From the NCBI RefSeq assembly GCF_008274215.1, contig NZ_VTPS01000004.1, forward strand, positions 62,001 to 126,000: a stretch of DNA of 64,000 bases. Direction: 5' to 3'. This document shows positions 12,854 through 48,935 of the stretch, piece by piece; the first letter of the stretch is position 1, and every line of letters begins with the position of its first letter. The DNA is from Calorimonas adulescens (GTDB taxonomy: Bacteria > Bacillota > Thermoanaerobacteria > Thermoanaerobacterales > UBA4877). Under the pieces are notes generated by a model. The model saw nothing but the letters and a program-made list of their open reading frames with translations, had not been told where the DNA came from and searched no databases. Made by a program: the position numbers and the translations under genes.

Positions 12854-12900
12854 GGTTATAAGGGAAAAATTTATAGATATAACCTTATAGCCATTTTTTT
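12854..12900 (+). terminator. terminator closing the dehydrogenase operon
   Basis: A 10-bp stem (12854-12863 with 12883-12892, one G-T pair), 19-base loop and a run of seven T (12894-12900). It overlaps the last codons and stop of the convergent corA-type gene, so the two transcription units end on top of each other. Confidence 0.7.
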
Positions 12901-13811
12901 CGTTTAAAATATATAATCTGTATAATAGTGATAATAGCCATAACGGCGAGAGTAATAAAATAACCGTACCTCCACCTCAGTTCTGGCATATTGTTAAAAT
13001 TCATCCCATATATTCCACTTATCACCGTAAGAGGCATAAGAAGTGTGGCTACTATAGTCAAAAACCGCATCTGTTCGTTAGCTTTAAGATCCATTATGGA
13101 CACGTAGGATTCAATGACATTATTAGCGGACTCCAGCACAAATCGCAGCCTTTCAGAAGCATCCCTGTATTTTTCATTTAATACCATCGATAGAGAATCT
13201 TTACTCTCTGCAAGCATATCAATTTCATTCAGGTCGTCGACCACATACTTGCTCAGGTTTACTATATGAGCATATCTGTATACCATATTTTTAAAGTTTA
13301 ATAAGTTGCGCAGATATGATATAGAATATACATCGTAGATTTTACTTTCCAGCTTTTCAAGTTCAGACATAAACCAGTCGCTGAGGCTGTAGTAATTCTC
13401 ACAACATTCTTCCAATATGTAGAACAATAGCTTGTTCACATTCAATTTTCCTATCTTTTTGTTTTTTATATCGTGTTCTATGCCTTTAAAAAACTCAGGT
13501 TTTTCCTTATACAGGGTTACAATATAACCGTCTTCTCTATAGATATAGTAAATGTATTCTACTAAATAACCTGAATGATGTCGTGTAAAATAAGGCATTA
13601 CAAAAAAATAATCGTCATTTATTCTATGTAACTTAATCTTTGGTCGGTCAGCATTTATCAGTTCTACTATTTTTTCTGTTAAATTAATCTTTTCATCGAG
13701 CTTTTTTGACAAAAACTCCTCAACACTGGACATTACCCATAGCACATCTACTGTATCCAATGTTTTATCAATATAGTCTTGATAAATAAGATCTTTAGTG
13801 ATATATTGCAT
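12885..13811 (-). CDS. CorA-family divalent cation transporter
   Basis: A 308-residue CorA-type Mg2+/Co2+ channel of the inner membrane. A long cytosolic alpha-helical region precedes two C-terminal membrane helices. The signature GMN is at about residues 269-271 (IYGMNFNNMP), at the end of TM1, followed by an acidic loop, TM2 and a basic tail KRKKWL. ATG 13811 is preceded by AGAGGTG on the minus strand and a TATAAT (13831-13836). It is one of two candidate Mg2+ uptake systems in the window (see the M-box operon at 46095-48935); this one has no M-box. Confidence 0.9.
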   Translation of the reverse strand: MQYITKDLIYQDYIDKTLDTVDVLWVMSSVEEFLSKKLDEKINLTEKIVELINADRPKIKLHRINDDYFFVMPYFTRHHSGYLVEYIYYIYREDGYIVTLYKEKPEFFKGIEHDIKNKKIGKLNVNKLLFYILEECCENYYSLSDWFMSELEKLESKIYDVYSISYLRNLLNFKNMVYRYAHIVNLSKYVVDDLNEIDMLAESKDSLSMVLNEKYRDASERLRFVLESANNVIESYVSIMDLKANEQMRFLTIVATLLMPLTVISGIYGMNFNNMPELRWRYGYFITLAVMAIITIIQIIYFKRKKWL

Positions 13812-42580: not shown

Positions 42581-43582
42581 ATGAAGAATTTTTTTGTGTT
42601 TTTTGTAGTCTTAATTATGGTTCTTGCTTTTGTTGCCGGATGCGGAACACAACAGACTCAGCAGCAGGCACAACAAGGCGAAACCCAAGAACAGAAACCT
42701 GCTGAACAGAGGTTTTTAAACATTGCCACAGGTGGTACAGCAGGTACCTATTATCCGCTTGGTGGTGCTATGGCAGATATATGGAAAAACAATATACCTG
42801 GGCTCAATCCATCTGTGCAGAGCACAGGAGCAGCTGTGGCCAACGTGAATATGCTCAAGGATGGCAGTGTAGATGTGATATTTGTGCAGAATGATATTGC
42901 ATATTATGCCTTCAGCGGCGAAGAGATGTTTAAGGACAATAAATATGAAGATATCAGAGGGCTTGCGTCTCTTTACCCTGAGACCATTCAGATTGTGGCC
43001 TTGAAAGATAAAAATATCAAAACTGTTGCTGATTTAAAGGGGAAAAGGGTAGCTGTAGGTGCTGCTGGTAGCGGTACTGAGGCCAATGCGAGGCAGATAT
43101 TAGAAGCCGCAGGACTGTCATATAATGATATAAATGTACAATACCTGTCCTTTGGTGATGCTGCAAACAATATGAAGGATGGCAATATTGACGCTGCTTT
43201 TGTCACTGCAGGGATGCCGACTGCCGCAGTCACAGATATTTCTGCGACAAAGGATATTAATATCGTTGAGATAGGCGATGATATTGCAGATAATCTGATT
43301 AGAAAGTATCCCTTCTATGTAAAGACAACCATTCAAGGTGGCACCTATAAGGGGCAGGATTCAGATGTAAAGACTGTGTCTGTCATGTCAATGCTGGCAG
43401 TATCAAAGGATATGGATGAGGAACTTGCATATAACCTTGTTAAGTCACTTTTTGAGAATACAGACAGGTTAAAGGCTGCTCATGCTATGGGTGTGAAGAT
43501 TACTATTGATACAGCAAAAGAGGGTATGTCTATAGACCTTCATCCTGGCGCTGCAAAATATTATACTGAACAGGGCAAATAA
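42581..43582 (+). CDS. TAXI-family TRAP transporter solute receptor (lipoprotein)
   Basis: A 333-residue extracytoplasmic receptor. Signal peptide with lipobox VAGC (Cys about 21), Gln-rich linker, then the TAXI-type fold: LNIATGGTAGTYYPLGGAMADIW, VFVQNDIAYYAFSG-like, KGKRVAVGAAGSGTEANARQILEAAGL. TAXI receptors bind glutamate or dicarboxylates in the few characterised cases. It is followed by a DUF1850 gene and a fused DctQM permease, the standard set. Confidence 0.94.
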   Translation: MKNFFVFFVVLIMVLAFVAGCGTQQTQQQAQQGETQEQKPAEQRFLNIATGGTAGTYYPLGGAMADIWKNNIPGLNPSVQSTGAAVANVNMLKDGSVDVIFVQNDIAYYAFSGEEMFKDNKYEDIRGLASLYPETIQIVALKDKNIKTVADLKGKRVAVGAAGSGTEANARQILEAAGLSYNDINVQYLSFGDAANNMKDGNIDAAFVTAGMPTAAVTDISATKDINIVEIGDDIADNLIRKYPFYVKTTIQGGTYKGQDSDVKTVSVMSMLAVSKDMDEELAYNLVKSLFENTDRLKAAHAMGVKITIDTAKEGMSIDLHPGAAKYYTEQGK

Positions 43583-44123: not shown

Positions 44124-46058
44124 ATGGAGAGCAGAGAAAATGAGACAGTAGACATCCAGGAATTCATGTCTAAGGTTGATAGAGAGTCTGATTACAGAAA
44201 ATTAAAAGGCTTTGCCGGGCGTTTTGTGTGGGCGTTAGCCATAGCCTTTTCTGTGTTTCAGGTTTATACGGCAGCCTTTGGAGTCTTAGATGCCATGATA
44301 CAGAGGTCTATACACTTAGGGTTTGGCCTTTCATTGATATTTTTATTATATCCTGCCAGAAAGTCCTGGCCCAGAAACAGGCTTCACTGGTTTGACGTCC
44401 TTTTGTCGGTTCTGGGAGCGGCAGCGCCGGCCTATATAGTAATATTTTATAAAGACCTGGTACTCAGGGCAGGTACAGTAACAACCACGGATATGATAAT
44501 TGGTGTCATAGGCATACTGTTAGTGCTGGAGGCAGCCAGAAGAATAGTGGGTTGGCCGATGGTTATAATTGCACTGATTTTTTTGTCCTATGCCTTTTTA
44601 GGGCCATATGTGCCGGGTGACCTTGCCCATAGAGGGGTGACTGTCTCAAAACTGGTGGGCCATATGTTTTATACCACAGAAGGCATATTTGGCATTCCGC
44701 TGATGGTATCGTCTACCTTTATATTCCTGTTTATACTCTTTGGAGCCTTTCTGGAAAAGACAGGCATGGGTAAGCTGTTTATAGACCTTTCCAATGCTAT
44801 TGCGGGTTGGGCTGTGGGCGGACCGGCCAAGGTTGCGGTTTTGTCCAGCGGTCTTATGGGCACAATCTCTGGCAGTTCTGTTGCCAATGTGGTTGGTACA
44901 GGCAGTTTTACCATACCAATGATGAAAAAATTGGGTTATAAACCTGAATTTGCAGGGGCGGTCGAGGCAACCGCTTCAACGGGAGGCCAGCTTATGCCAC
45001 CTATAATGGGTGCAGCAGCCTTTCTCATGGCTGAGTTTGTCGGCGTACCGTATTTGAGGATAGTTACTGCTGCCATAATTCCTGCTATACTCTATTATAC
45101 CGGTGTATGGATAAGCGTTGACCTTGAAGCTAGGAGGCTTGGTCTGAAAGGAATGAGCAGAGAGGAAATCCCTAAACTCAAGGATATAATCCTTGAAAGG
45201 GGCCACCTGCTTATACCCCTTATAGCTATAATATGGCTCCTTGTAAGTGGATATACCCCTATGAGGGTGGCACTCATAGCTATCCTCTTAGCTGTTTTAT
45301 GCAGTATCTTGAGGAAGAATACCAGGATAAGACCTGTGGATATAATAGATGCCCTGGAGCAGGGTGCCAGATCGGCTCTCGGTGTTGTCGCTGCAACTGC
45401 GTGTGCAGGCATAATAATTGGGGTTGTTACTTTGACAGGACTGGGGCTTAAGTTTGCCACAACAATGGTTGACGCAGCCCAGGGGAATTTGTTTTTGACA
45501 TTAATATTTGTAATGTTTGCTTCTCTTGTGTTGGGGATGGGTGTCCCTACCACGGCCAATTATGTGATAACATCGACCATAGCAGCGCCGGCCTTGATAC
45601 TCATGAAGGTTCCTACTTTGGCGGCACATATGTTTGCGTTTTATTTTGGGATAGTTGCGGACATAACACCACCGGTTGCTTTAGCTGCATATGCGGGGGC
45701 CGGCATAGCACGGGGGAATCCTATGAAGACAGGTATAAACGCTACAAAAATAGCTATAGCAGCGTTCCTGATACCATATATTTTTGTCTATAACCCTCAA
45801 ATGCTGTTGATTGATGCGCAGCCTTTAGAAGTTATCTGGATGATAATAACGGCATGTATAGGTATGTATGGTGTGGGTGCCTCAATGATCGGCTATATGC
45901 TCACCAATGCTTCAATAATAGAGAGGGTTTTGATGTTTGTTGGTGGCGTATTGATGGTTACACCAGGCCTCAGTACTGATTGTATAGGTTTTGTATTGCT
46001 TCTTTCCATATTTATTTTCCAGAGGAGAAAAAAAGCATTATTAGCTAAGGGTGCATAA
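44124..46058 (+). CDS. TRAP transporter fused permease (DctQM fusion)
   Basis: A 644-residue membrane protein with the small DctQ-like part (about 25-170) fused to the large DctM-like part (about 190-600). Key stretches: FGAFLEKTGMGKLFIDLSNAIAG, SGLMGTISGSSVANVVGTGSFTIPMMKKLGY, ATASTGGQLMPPIMGAAAFLMAEF and the C-terminal ITPPVALAAYAGAGIARGNPMKTG. It imports the acid bound by the TAXI receptor. A bidirectional terminator follows. Confidence 0.95.
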   Translation: MESRENETVDIQEFMSKVDRESDYRKLKGFAGRFVWALAIAFSVFQVYTAAFGVLDAMIQRSIHLGFGLSLIFLLYPARKSWPRNRLHWFDVLLSVLGAAAPAYIVIFYKDLVLRAGTVTTTDMIIGVIGILLVLEAARRIVGWPMVIIALIFLSYAFLGPYVPGDLAHRGVTVSKLVGHMFYTTEGIFGIPLMVSSTFIFLFILFGAFLEKTGMGKLFIDLSNAIAGWAVGGPAKVAVLSSGLMGTISGSSVANVVGTGSFTIPMMKKLGYKPEFAGAVEATASTGGQLMPPIMGAAAFLMAEFVGVPYLRIVTAAIIPAILYYTGVWISVDLEARRLGLKGMSREEIPKLKDIILERGHLLIPLIAIIWLLVSGYTPMRVALIAILLAVLCSILRKNTRIRPVDIIDALEQGARSALGVVAATACAGIIIGVVTLTGLGLKFATTMVDAAQGNLFLTLIFVMFASLVLGMGVPTTANYVITSTIAAPALILMKVPTLAAHMFAFYFGIVADITPPVALAAYAGAGIARGNPMKTGINATKIAIAAFLIPYIFVYNPQMLLIDAQPLEVIWMIITACIGMYGVGASMIGYMLTNASIIERVLMFVGGVLMVTPGLSTDCIGFVLLLSIFIFQRRKKALLAKGA

Positions 46059-46090
46059 AAAACGGATTGCAAAGGGCAATCCGTTTTTTA
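46057..46090. terminator. bidirectional terminator between TRAP and NRAMP genes
   Basis: AAAAAACGGATTGC / GCAATCCGTTTTTT: 10-bp core stem (46061-46070 with 46076-46085) extended by A/T runs on both sides. It serves both convergent operons. Confidence 0.93.
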
Positions 46091-46094
46091 TGGT

Positions 46095-47330
46095 TTAGAT
46101 TACAGAGAATAGCAGTAATAAAACTGTCAGGATGATTATAAAGACAGCAGTAATCCATGCAATAATATTAAAAGTTTTAGAGTTTACATATTCACCCATA
46201 AGCTCTTTATTATTTGCCAGCTTTATTATAAATATGAGGATTATGGGAACCAGTATACCATTTATGACCTGAGATACAAGCATAACCTCAATAAGGTTAA
46301 CACTGAAAAGTGTTATTACACCCGCACCTATAATAATCAGTATTGTATAAAGAGAATAGAAGATGGGGGCTTCAGAAAATTTATTGTCCAAGCCACTTTC
46401 CCACCCAAAGGCTTCACATATTACGTATGATGTGGAAAGTGGAAGTACACTGGCAGCCATTACAGAGGCCCCAAAGAGACCTATGCCGAAGAGAAATGTT
46501 GCATATTTTCCGGCCAGTGGCCTTAATGCTATGGCTGCATCCGCTGCTGTGTTTATTGATATGCCATGAGTGTTAAGCGTCGCAGCTGTGGTGACAATTA
46601 TAAAAAAGGCAATGAAGTCGGCCATTATTGCCCCTGTATAGACGTCTAACCTTTCGTATTTATAATGTTTTATTGTTATTCCCTTATCCACTATACTTGA
46701 TTGAAGGAAAAACTGCATCCAAGGGGCAATAGTGGTGCCTACCATGCCGATAAACAACTGTATAAAATCACGGTCCCACTCAAAAGAGGGGACAAAAGTG
46801 TCATGCAGCACGATATTCCAATCGGGCTTTACTATAAAAGCGGTTATTATATAAGTAAACAAGGCAAGAGAGAGGGAGAGGAAGAACTTTTCCACAGAGG
46901 TATAATTTCCCCTTATTACTATAAACCATATTATTATGGCCATTATGGGCACAGAAATATACTTACTTATGCCAAACAGTTCCATGCTTGCTGCTATACC
47001 TGCAAATTCAGATATAATTATAGTGATATTGGCAATAAGCAGGGCTAACATGGCAAGAAAAGTCCACCTTACGCCAAACTGCTCACGTATGAGTGCTGAG
47101 AGTCCTTTGCCTGTGACGGTGCCCATCCTGGAGCACATCTCTTGGGCTACAGCGAGGCTGAACGTCATGAACAAAAGCCCCCACAGCATTTTATAGCCGT
47201 ATGCTGAACCTACAGTGGCATATGTGGCTATGCCGCCTGCATCGTCACCGGCAGCGGCAGCAACCAGGCCAGGCCCTATTATGCTTAAGAAGGTTAAAAT
47301 ATTTTTCAGTTTATTGTCCCCAGCCCGCAT
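46095..47330 (-). CDS. NRAMP-related divalent cation importer, probably Mg2+
   Basis: A 411-residue SLC11/NRAMP permease with 11 predicted helices. The canonical metal-site motifs are altered: TM1 DPGN is replaced by DDAGG (29-33, in IGPGLVAAAAGDDAGGIAT) and TM6 MPH by Ala202-Pro-Trp. The missing TM6 methionine is the residue that favours transition metals, and its loss is a feature of NRAMP-related magnesium transporters. It lies two genes behind an M-box Mg2+ riboswitch and overlaps a soluble MgtE-N/CBS protein gene. ATG 47330 is inside the end of that gene, so the two are coupled. Mg2+ import is a strong inference. Confidence 0.88.
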   Translation of the reverse strand: MRAGDNKLKNILTFLSIIGPGLVAAAAGDDAGGIATYATVGSAYGYKMLWGLLFMTFSLAVAQEMCSRMGTVTGKGLSALIREQFGVRWTFLAMLALLIANITIIISEFAGIAASMELFGISKYISVPIMAIIIWFIVIRGNYTSVEKFFLSLSLALFTYIITAFIVKPDWNIVLHDTFVPSFEWDRDFIQLFIGMVGTTIAPWMQFFLQSSIVDKGITIKHYKYERLDVYTGAIMADFIAFFIIVTTAATLNTHGISINTAADAAIALRPLAGKYATFLFGIGLFGASVMAASVLPLSTSYVICEAFGWESGLDNKFSEAPIFYSLYTILIIIGAGVITLFSVNLIEVMLVSQVINGILVPIILIFIIKLANNKELMGEYVNSKTFNIIAWITAVFIIILTVLLLLFSVI

Positions 47331-47331
47331 G

Positions 47332-48576
47332 TTAAACACCTGCCATCCTTGTAAACCATCTCCTTCTGATGGTTGAAATCTCATCAAATATGTCATTTAT
47401 TATAACAACACCTGATAAAACATTATTTTCATCAACAACTGGTATTGCTAAAAGACCATATTTTATAAACAGCTCAGATGCATCCCTTATGGAGTCTGTA
47501 TCCTTGAGAGTAATCACATTTGTACTCATAATATGCCTGAGCATGGTATCGGGTGTTGATATTACTAAATCTCTTAAGGATACTATACCCACAAGATGTT
47601 CCTCATTGTCTTGAACATAAAGATAATAAGGCACCTCAGAGGACGGCTTCAATTCCCGTAAGGCATGCAGTGTTTCCTCCACGGTCATTTCTGGGGAAAA
47701 GGCAATATACTCTGTAGTCATTATTGAGCCTACCTCATCGTCTTCATAATCCATCAGCTCCCTTATTTCCTCAGCGTTTTCTGATTCCATATGGTTTAGT
47801 ATAGAGTCTGCCTCTTCCTCATCCAGGGTTTCAAGCAGGTCGGCAGCATCATCACTGGACATATTTTCTATTATCTTTATGGCCTTATCCTCATACAGAC
47901 TTTCAATTATATTTTTCTGTATCTCTGGTTCAATTTCTTCCAATATGTCGGCAGCCCTTTCTTCATCGAGACTGCTTATGAAGTTGGTTCTGTATTCGCT
48001 GCTCATATCTTCAAGTATGTCTGCAAGGTCTGCAGGGTGCATATTTAAGAGCTTTTTATATGGGATTACAAGCTTAAGACTGTCCTCTTCCCTCTCGAGA
48101 GGCTCAACTCCGTGCCACGGTATTAGTATATCCCTGTTTATCTTTTCACTAAGTCCGACAAATCCCAATCTTCTCAGGAGACCGGAGAATCCGGTGTCTA
48201 CGGAATTTATATAAAAGCAGCCCTCTCTATTTACTATTAATATGTCGTTGACCCTTATTACTTTTTTCCCATTTACATCCACAATCTGTTTGTCTAAGAG
48301 ATTTTTTGCAAGAAATATGCCATTGACCGGATGGTTTGATGAGACAGGGCGGTCAACAACAATGGATATGCCCTTCTTCTTTATAATCTGTATTTTTTTC
48401 CATGACAGTTCAATACGGCTGTTTTTCTTGTCTCTGATGATTATGGAAATTATTCTTGGGAAATCCTCGTCGAGATCCGCATACATATCAACCATGTATC
48501 CCAGAAGTATTCCGTTGGTATCATATACAGGTTTTGATAAAAGTGTGCTGAAGTAGACCTCATTCATAAACTCCAT
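47332..48576 (-). CDS. soluble MgtE N-domain/CBS-pair protein, partner of the NRAMP permease
   Basis: A 414-residue cytosolic protein with three parts: two PRC-barrel-like segments (about 1-140, KPVYDTNGILLGYMVDMY and AKNLLDKQIVDVNGKKVIRVNDI), an MgtE N-domain of helical repeats (about 170-285, MHPADLADILEDMSSEYR, LDEERAADILEEIEPE, MSSDDAADLLETLDEEEA) and a CBS pair (about 288-405, VGSIMTTEYIAFSPEMTVEE and HIMSTNVITLKDTDSI). There is no MgtE membrane domain. In MgtE these domains bind Mg2+ and close the channel. Coupled to the NRAMP gene, it may be a detached Mg2+ sensor that gates it. Start fixed by AAGGAGGGG. Confidence 0.9.
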   Translation of the reverse strand: MEFMNEVYFSTLLSKPVYDTNGILLGYMVDMYADLDEDFPRIISIIIRDKKNSRIELSWKKIQIIKKKGISIVVDRPVSSNHPVNGIFLAKNLLDKQIVDVNGKKVIRVNDILIVNREGCFYINSVDTGFSGLLRRLGFVGLSEKINRDILIPWHGVEPLEREEDSLKLVIPYKKLLNMHPADLADILEDMSSEYRTNFISSLDEERAADILEEIEPEIQKNIIESLYEDKAIKIIENMSSDDAADLLETLDEEEADSILNHMESENAEEIRELMDYEDDEVGSIMTTEYIAFSPEMTVEETLHALRELKPSSEVPYYLYVQDNEEHLVGIVSLRDLVISTPDTMLRHIMSTNVITLKDTDSIRDASELFIKYGLLAIPVVDENNVLSGVVIINDIFDEISTIRRRWFTRMAGV

Positions 48577-48588
48577 GAAAACCCCTCC

Positions 48589-48681
48589 TTAAGAGGGATT
48601 CCGTCTCTCCGGTGAGATATGGAACCCCTCTTGATTATTATTTGCATAACATCGGTATATATTACTGCCGTCCGGGTCCAT
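48589..48681 (-). CDS. 30-codon leader ORF, Met-Asp-Pro-Asp start
   Basis: A short frame between the M-box terminator and the MgtE-N/CBS gene. GGAGGTGAGG (48685-48694) gives it a strong ribosome binding site with 8-base spacing from GGAGG to ATG. The peptide starts MDPDGSNIYRCY and ends ERRNPS; its stop overlaps the ribosome binding site of the downstream gene (TAAGGAGGGG). Inverted repeats AAGAGGG...CCCTCTT and GGTTCC...GGAATCC span its second half. The acidic-proline start recalls MgtL (MEPDP) of the mgtA leader, where such codons destabilise ribosomes at low Mg2+. Regulatory role is inference. Confidence 0.6.
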   Translation of the reverse strand: MDPDGSNIYRCYANNNQEGFHISPERRNPS

Positions 48682-48694
48682 TATCCTCACCTCC

Positions 48695-48724
48695 AATAAA
48701 AAATCTTTCACCTGCGGTGAAAGA
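48695..48724 (-). terminator. terminator of M-box riboswitch
   Basis: On the minus strand TCTTTCACC-GCA-GGTGAAAGA (48724-48704), a perfect 9-bp stem, is followed by TTTTTTATT. It is the expression platform of the riboswitch, formed when Mg2+ is bound. Confidence 0.93.
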
Positions 48725-48905
48725 CGAAAATCTCCCACCGTGTGAGCTTTGGCACTATTCGGCATAGGGATAAATCCCAGCTGCATTAAGTAAAACCTTG
48801 ACACGGTAATACCTGTTTACCCATTGGCATCTCTCGATGTTTCCGGGCAGCAGCTTTTATCCGGATAGGAACCTCACCTAACGGTGAATATTTACCTTCT
48901 ACCGC
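48704..48905 (-). promoter_or_regulatory. M-box (ykoK) Mg2+ riboswitch
   Basis: On the minus strand the leader carries the M-box core in order: CGTTAGGTGAGG (48883-48872), a TCC-TAT element, GCTGCTGCCCGGAAA (about 48854-48840), CATCGAGAGATGCCAATGGGT (about 48840-48820), AACAGGTATTACCGTGTCAAGG, CTGGGATTTATCCC and AAAGCTCACACGG before the terminator. These are the conserved Mg2+-sensing elements of the Bacillus ykoK/mgtE leader. High Mg2+ should stop transcription of the MgtE-N/CBS-NRAMP operon. Confidence 0.95.
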
Positions 48906-48906
48906 A

Positions 48907-48935
48907 ATATTAGCACGTTTTAGCTGTTTTTTCAA
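48907..48935 (-). promoter_or_regulatory. promoter of M-box operon
   Basis: Minus strand: TTGAAA (48935-48930), 17-bp spacer, TAATAT (48912-48907). It places the transcript start a few bases before the M-box. Confidence 0.8.

Follow-up and report, generated by a model that had tools for sequence, protein, structure and literature searches.

NRAMP-related Mg2+ transporters (NrmT) were defined by Shin et al. (2014) from M-boxes located before NRAMP-related genes, and Mg2+ transport was demonstrated for them. According to that paper (PMC4072509), a common neighbour of nrmT is a gene encoding the cytoplasmic MgtE domain. Sensing of Mg2+ by the M-box has been published for relatives. The ion site of these transporters (NRMTs) has the signature DxxG in TM1 and TxxA in TM6 (PMC8806188). 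A different principle, based on translation of a leader peptide, is known from enteric bacteria. The MgtL peptide of E. coli begins with the destabilising sequence EPDP, at which ribosomes dissociate when Mg2+ is low, and mgtA is then transcribed (PMC11282234). In the mgtCBRU operon of Salmonella, acidic codons of MgtQ and mutually exclusive stem-loops serve to free the ribosome-binding site of mgtB (PMC8092293). For Gram-positive bacteria, the M-box is regarded as enough by itself to regulate the import of Mg2+.

Here we describe an operon on the minus strand of a 64,000-nucleotide stretch of DNA from Calorimonas adulescens (the window, meaning the whole stretch analysed, to which all coordinates refer). 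We consider it likely, with some reservation, that this is an NRMT-type Mg2+ import operon with two Mg2+ switches in tandem, an M-box and a leader attenuator read by the ribosome. Its features, in the order of transcription, are as follows:

48907-48935, minus strand: promoter-like site TTGAAA-17-TAATAT with TG before the -10 (extended -10), a consensus match only
48726-48892, minus strand: M-box Mg2+ riboswitch aptamer (RF00380), full length, E 5.7e-34
48703-48725, minus strand: intrinsic terminator-like hairpin of the M-box, 10 pairs of which 4 GC, followed by a T-run, TTTTTATTGG
48688-48694, minus strand: GGAGGTG, the leader ORF's own Shine-Dalgarno sequence, assigned by sequence
48589-48681, minus strand: leader ORF of 30 codons, MDPDGSNIYRCYANNNQEGFHISPERRNPS and stop, of a class that recurs across Bacillota
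48621-48632, minus strand: putative attenuator segment A, leader codons 17-21, AAGAGGGGTTCC, mimicking the Shine-Dalgarno region of the gene; A:B -19.0 kcal/mol
48591-48602, minus strand: putative attenuator segment B, GGAATCCCTCTT, able to pair with A or C
48582-48590, minus strand: segment C, AAGGAGGGG, which is the Shine-Dalgarno region belonging to the PRC/MgtE_N/CBS gene; B:C -12.9 kcal/mol
47332-48576, minus strand: gene for a soluble PRC-barrel/MgtE_N/CBS-CBS protein, 414 aa, matching Thermus MgtE (2yvy, E 4.6e-38)
46095-47330, minus strand: gene for the NRAMP-related Mg2+ transporter (NRMT), 411 aa, Nramp E 3.7e-101
46054-46092, no strand assigned: shared bidirectional terminator at the operon end, 17-pair stem with T-run

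The M-box, the permease and its neighbour

The order of elements proposed in the initial annotation, which was made from the DNA alone, was confirmed: M-box, terminator, PRC/MgtE_N/CBS gene and NRAMP-type permease follow one another on the minus strand. A covariance search recovered the M-box over its full length with 149.3 bits, compared to a gathering score of 44, and it is the sole M-box in the genome. Its terminator is present as the terminator-like hairpin at 48725-48703, and from aptamer and hairpin together Mg2+-dependent termination is predicted. The promoter claimed upstream of the M-box held in part: a consensus-like site does exist there, and a similar one is found in the closest relative (L007), but the number of promoters over the region (15 found versus 13.1 expected in shuffles) was not above that of shuffled sequence, so that only its position speaks for this site. 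At the other end, the gene for a TRAP-type DctM permease (44124-46058), whose C-terminus gives a weak FxsA-like match (PF04186), is convergent with the NRMT operon and has the terminator in common with it. The window also contains a gene for an NMT1-like solute receptor (42581-43582) and, on the plus strand, a T-box leader (RF00230, 35099-35298, 104.6 bits).

The permease was annotated as an NRAMP protein with altered metal motifs that imports Mg2+, and the alignments agree with this. TM1 reads GDDAGG, in which DAGG aligns with the DPGN of classical NRAMPs, and TTIAPW stands in TM6 where these have MPH; DDAGG and TTIAPW thus conform to the NRMT signature. The best solved relative is the Mg2+ transporter EleNRMT (PDB 7qia, E 4.6e-124), with 50% identity over 402 residues without gaps and 418 bits, versus 98 bits for the best MntH chain. 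As in EleNRMT, Trp occupies the position of the first TM6 His of proton-coupled NRAMPs. These observations support placing the permease with the characterised NRAMP-related Mg2+ transporters, and Mg2+ import is predicted for it on that basis. That it imports Mn2+ or Fe2+ instead, under an M-box whose ligand has changed, we regard as highly improbable. Pfam and NCBIfam assign the protein to the Nramp family at large, which leaves room for such a function, but the identity to EleNRMT and the NRMT signature both speak against it, the MntH score is low (151, cut-off 430), and two other NRAMPs encoded elsewhere in the same genome retain the canonical DPGN and MPH. The reading of an operon with M-box and NRAMP-type permease as a Mg2+ import operon is supported, but it had already been published by Shin et al. 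(2014; PMC4072509). With regard to other Mg2+ importers, searches of the genome found no full-length MgtE, no P-type ATPase above the MgtA cut-off and one CorA gene. The latter lies inside the window (about 12900-13811, minus strand), and neither an M-box nor a leader peptide of the class described below was found at it.

The first gene was initially described as encoding a soluble MgtE-N/CBS protein. MgtE_N and two CBS domains are indeed present, but an N-terminal PRC barrel (PF05239, E 1.4e-10) had been overlooked, and the 414-aa protein thus corresponds to a PRC barrel joined to the cytosolic MgtE domain, the pore being absent. The alignment with relatives spans the entire N-terminal region. 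A gene for the MgtE cytosolic domain adjoins the permease gene in 72 of the 80 related loci sampled; the NrmT paper (PMC4072509) makes no mention of a PRC barrel.

A leader ORF class at Mg2+ importer genes

The initial annotation had missed a short ORF, preceded by its own Shine-Dalgarno sequence, that follows the M-box terminator and comes before the first gene. It begins MDPDG, and it is retained in L007 (MDPDGSNIYRCSVNNNQEGFHIPPMEWIPS). ORFs at the same place in other Bacillota begin with MDSGP, MDSSP, MDTDP, MDAGP, MDGSP, MEGDP, MDLDP, MDSDP and others, the MDSGP leaders being found in relatives that we take to be Caldicellulosiruptor and Thermoanaerobacterium. The codons vary and the residues are kept (Ser as TCT or AGT, Pro as CCT, CCC, CCG or CCA), and Pro5 occurs in 52 of 59 leaders, a set partly selected by the same motif. 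The peptides diverge beyond residue 5-6. Since conservation ends at this point, a small functional peptide was rejected as the role of the leader. At a permissive threshold, Rfam returned no described RNA family across the leader.

When a leader was required to match M[DE]x[DGSN]P and to have a Shine-Dalgarno sequence, it was found at 41 NRMT loci and at none of 180 control genes; this rule was derived from these same loci, many of which are close relatives, so that an independent test was needed. Leaders of this class were absent from the deltaproteobacterial and actinobacterial NRMT loci. In all 29 loci with an M-box signature, here scored by a simple sequence rule rather than by the covariance model, an acidic leader lies downstream of the M-box, whereas the signature is missing at 19 leader loci. 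The leader therefore stands on its own and is separable from the M-box. One contig labelled Ktedonobacter racemifer (L044), which could be mis-binned, has an MDSGP leader with GTG start before an NRMT operon; its attenuator is not significant.

The independent test was a search blind to gene identity, in which 398 genomes of the phylum were scanned for the DNA pattern GGAGG, 3-10 bases, ATG GAY NNN RRY CCN. Of the 46 short MDx[GDSN]P ORFs obtained, 17, from 13 genera, were directly upstream of Mg2+ importers, namely 8 CorA, 6 MgtE and 3 NRMT operons. Pfam was used to check two CorA references. The corresponding pattern with Asn2 gave 1 in 17 before a Mg2+ importer (MNPDP before CorA) among 71 matches examined, and that with Glu2 gave 0 in 15 among 30 loci examined; the difference between Asp2 (17/46) and the two controls together (1/32) has a Fisher p of 0.0003. 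When only the 36 ORFs with a downstream gene are considered, the binomial probability of 17 importers is about 1e-36, or 3e-27 with genera counted once, on the estimate that importers make up 0.2% of genes.

The mgtA genes of relatives have an M-box followed by a leader MDGGGSS, MDDGGNS, MDTGSST or MEGGS; these leaders have no proline, and the group is the weakest of the four importer groups. At the mgtA loci (L170-L178; for example L172, 1140-1320, with M-box and MDGGGSS leader) the architecture is unlike the attenuator described below, the leader ORF being apparently capable of long-range pairing with a later part of the 5' UTR (GGTATATGTAAT with ATTACATATACC). A looser leader pattern, applied to 101 relatives, also matched a repeated sequence in some genomes, probably rRNA.

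The open-access literature contained nothing on leader peptides of this class in connection with NrmT, mgtE, corA or the M-box. As subscription papers lay outside this search, the class before Mg2+ importers is probably, but not provably, new and undescribed.

Alternative helices and the proposed mechanism

In many loci the distal part of the leader ORF (A) closely repeats the Shine-Dalgarno region of the gene that follows (C). Both A and C are possible pairing partners of a segment B that lies between them. Examples of A and C are UGGAGGGGUGCUAA and AGGAGGGGUGCUAA, GAAGGAUGUAUG and AAGGAGGAUGCAUU, UGGGGGGAUGUA and GAGGGGGGAUGUUU and, before an MgtE, GGGGGGAGGAUUU and AAGGGAGGAAGGAAU. The relation between A and C is kept across loci though the sequences differ, and A falls in the distal leader in most of them. 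The A/B/C score exceeded that of shuffles at p<=0.05 for 38 of 57 leaders, about one third thus being without significant structure. With the score as initially defined, the window had p=0.80, because the region taken as C overlapped B; a single post hoc change, by which C was shortened where the leader stop lies within 22 bases of the gene, brought it to p=0.010 and the overall count from 37 to 38. The window leader also folds better than shuffles (z -2.7). Its A:B and B:C helices are mutually exclusive, whereas equilibrium accessibility was negative: over 43 loci, the Shine-Dalgarno region was not freer with A available (mean difference 0.008), and no switch appeared. The direction of the switch was therefore taken from the order of transcription, and a switch of this kind would need co-transcriptional folding.

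By analogy with MgtL, we infer that the leader responds to Mg2+ through the drop-off of ribosomes and that low Mg2+ is the ON state. At high Mg2+ the M-box would halt transcription. A transcript extending past it would then present the leader ORF with its MDPDG start. With ample Mg2+ the ribosome would read through the leader and occupy segment A, leaving B to pair with C, and the importer genes would be poorly translated. At low Mg2+, the acidic/proline start would cause ribosomes to detach or fail, as in E. coli MgtL; A would stay free, A:B would form, C would be exposed, and the PRC-MgtE_N-CBS protein and the NRMT would be made. This proposed direction fits the place of A in the distal leader. 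The reading as a tandem switch draws on the presence of the parts, the conservation of the leader start at the protein level, the link with unrelated Mg2+ importers and the exclusive helices. The missing Pro5 of the window leader counts against it, as do the negative equilibrium result and the third of leaders in which no significant A/B/C structure was seen, and the rarity of Glu2 leaders would be left unexplained by a mechanism based on charge only.

Three other explanations of the leader have to be weighed against this. Asp-Pro and Gly-Pro are slow translation motifs, and the near-invariance of Pro5 (in a set partly selected by motif) would also suit an attenuator that depends on ribosome arrest or on proline/EF-P and reads prolyl-tRNA or the state of translation rather than Mg2+, x-Pro stalling near the start keeping A free. 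Charged tRNA-Pro is indeed read by mgtP of Salmonella (PMC8092293). We nevertheless find this unlikely, as the leader class sits specifically on Mg2+ importers, the MDPDG of the window has its only Pro at position 3, and the EPDP of MgtL responds to Mg2+ (PMC11282234). Rather improbable, in our view, is coupling in the reverse sense, by which the leader ribosome melts the B:C hairpin, turns the gene on and makes the leader a translational enhancer. The window leader stops 15 bases before the gene start, near enough for coupling, and the equilibrium test gave the OFF direction no support; in many loci, however, B lies about 10-70 bases past the leader stop, beyond the reach of a terminating ribosome, and A lies inside the ORF, an arrangement in which occupying A favours B:C.

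It is quite improbable that the locus is an ordinary M-box-NRMT operon in which the small ORF arose by chance or is a functionless relic. Such a reading could point to the divergence of the peptides past residue 6 and to M-box control, which by itself would suffice to account for Mg2+ regulation (PMC4072509). It is difficult to reconcile with leaders at NRMT loci but not at control genes, with the recovery of such leaders before CorA, MgtE and NRMT by a search blind to gene identity, with the A/B/C structure of 38 in 57, and with leaders that exist without an M-box.

Extending the tandem-switch reading beyond the window, we lean towards the view that Bacillota have phylum-wide nascent-peptide Mg2+ sensors, M-D-x-[G/D/S]-P leader ORFs with an attenuator mimicking the Shine-Dalgarno region, which control NRMT, CorA, MgtE and MgtA, alone or under an M-box, and which are convergent with the enterobacterial MgtL principle. 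If so, the cell would gauge two different quantities on one transcript, using RNA folding for free Mg2+ and the nascent peptide for the stability of the ribosome, and MgtL-type sensing would be common among bacteria instead of being peculiar to the enterobacteria. The leader signature could find Mg2+-responsive genes without knowledge of the importer family, and reporter constructs ending right after the M-box would miss the leader layer.

Comparison with described systems

In its gene content the operon resembles that of Clostridium acetobutylicum Ca_c0685, where an M-box, an NRMT and the gene(s) encoding the cytoplasmic part of MgtE are likewise united in one operon (PMC4072509, for this and the following points). 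For Ca_c0685, Mg2+ transport and riboswitch control were demonstrated; the MgtE-domain gene there is split in two, unlike that of the window, and the sections available describe neither a leader peptide nor a second attenuator. The permease is likewise close to EleNRMT of Eggerthella lenta in identity, in the DxxG-TxxA ion site and in the Trp replacing the first TM6 His (PMC8806188), but EleNRMT has a structure and measured transport behind it (PDB 7qia; PMC8806188).

The leader is of the MgtL type in sequence, that is, a short ORF led by a Shine-Dalgarno sequence before a Mg2+ importer, with an acidic/proline N-terminus. Its MDPDG is close to the MEPDP of MgtL, which precedes mgtA in E. coli and Salmonella. 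The likeness is confined to the first five residues, and convergence seems as likely as common descent. Moreover, MgtL acts by Rho-dependent transcription termination in enterobacteria, whereas the class described here has a hairpin with a Shine-Dalgarno mimic and occurs in Bacillota before several importer families. With MgtQ the window leader shares an acidic short ORF and mutually exclusive stem-loops that would free or hide the ribosome-binding site of the importer; MgtQ differs in being 8 aa long and located within the operon, with Asp2, Pro4 and Glu5 and four stem regions, whereas in the window the Shine-Dalgarno mimic is part of the leader ORF itself.
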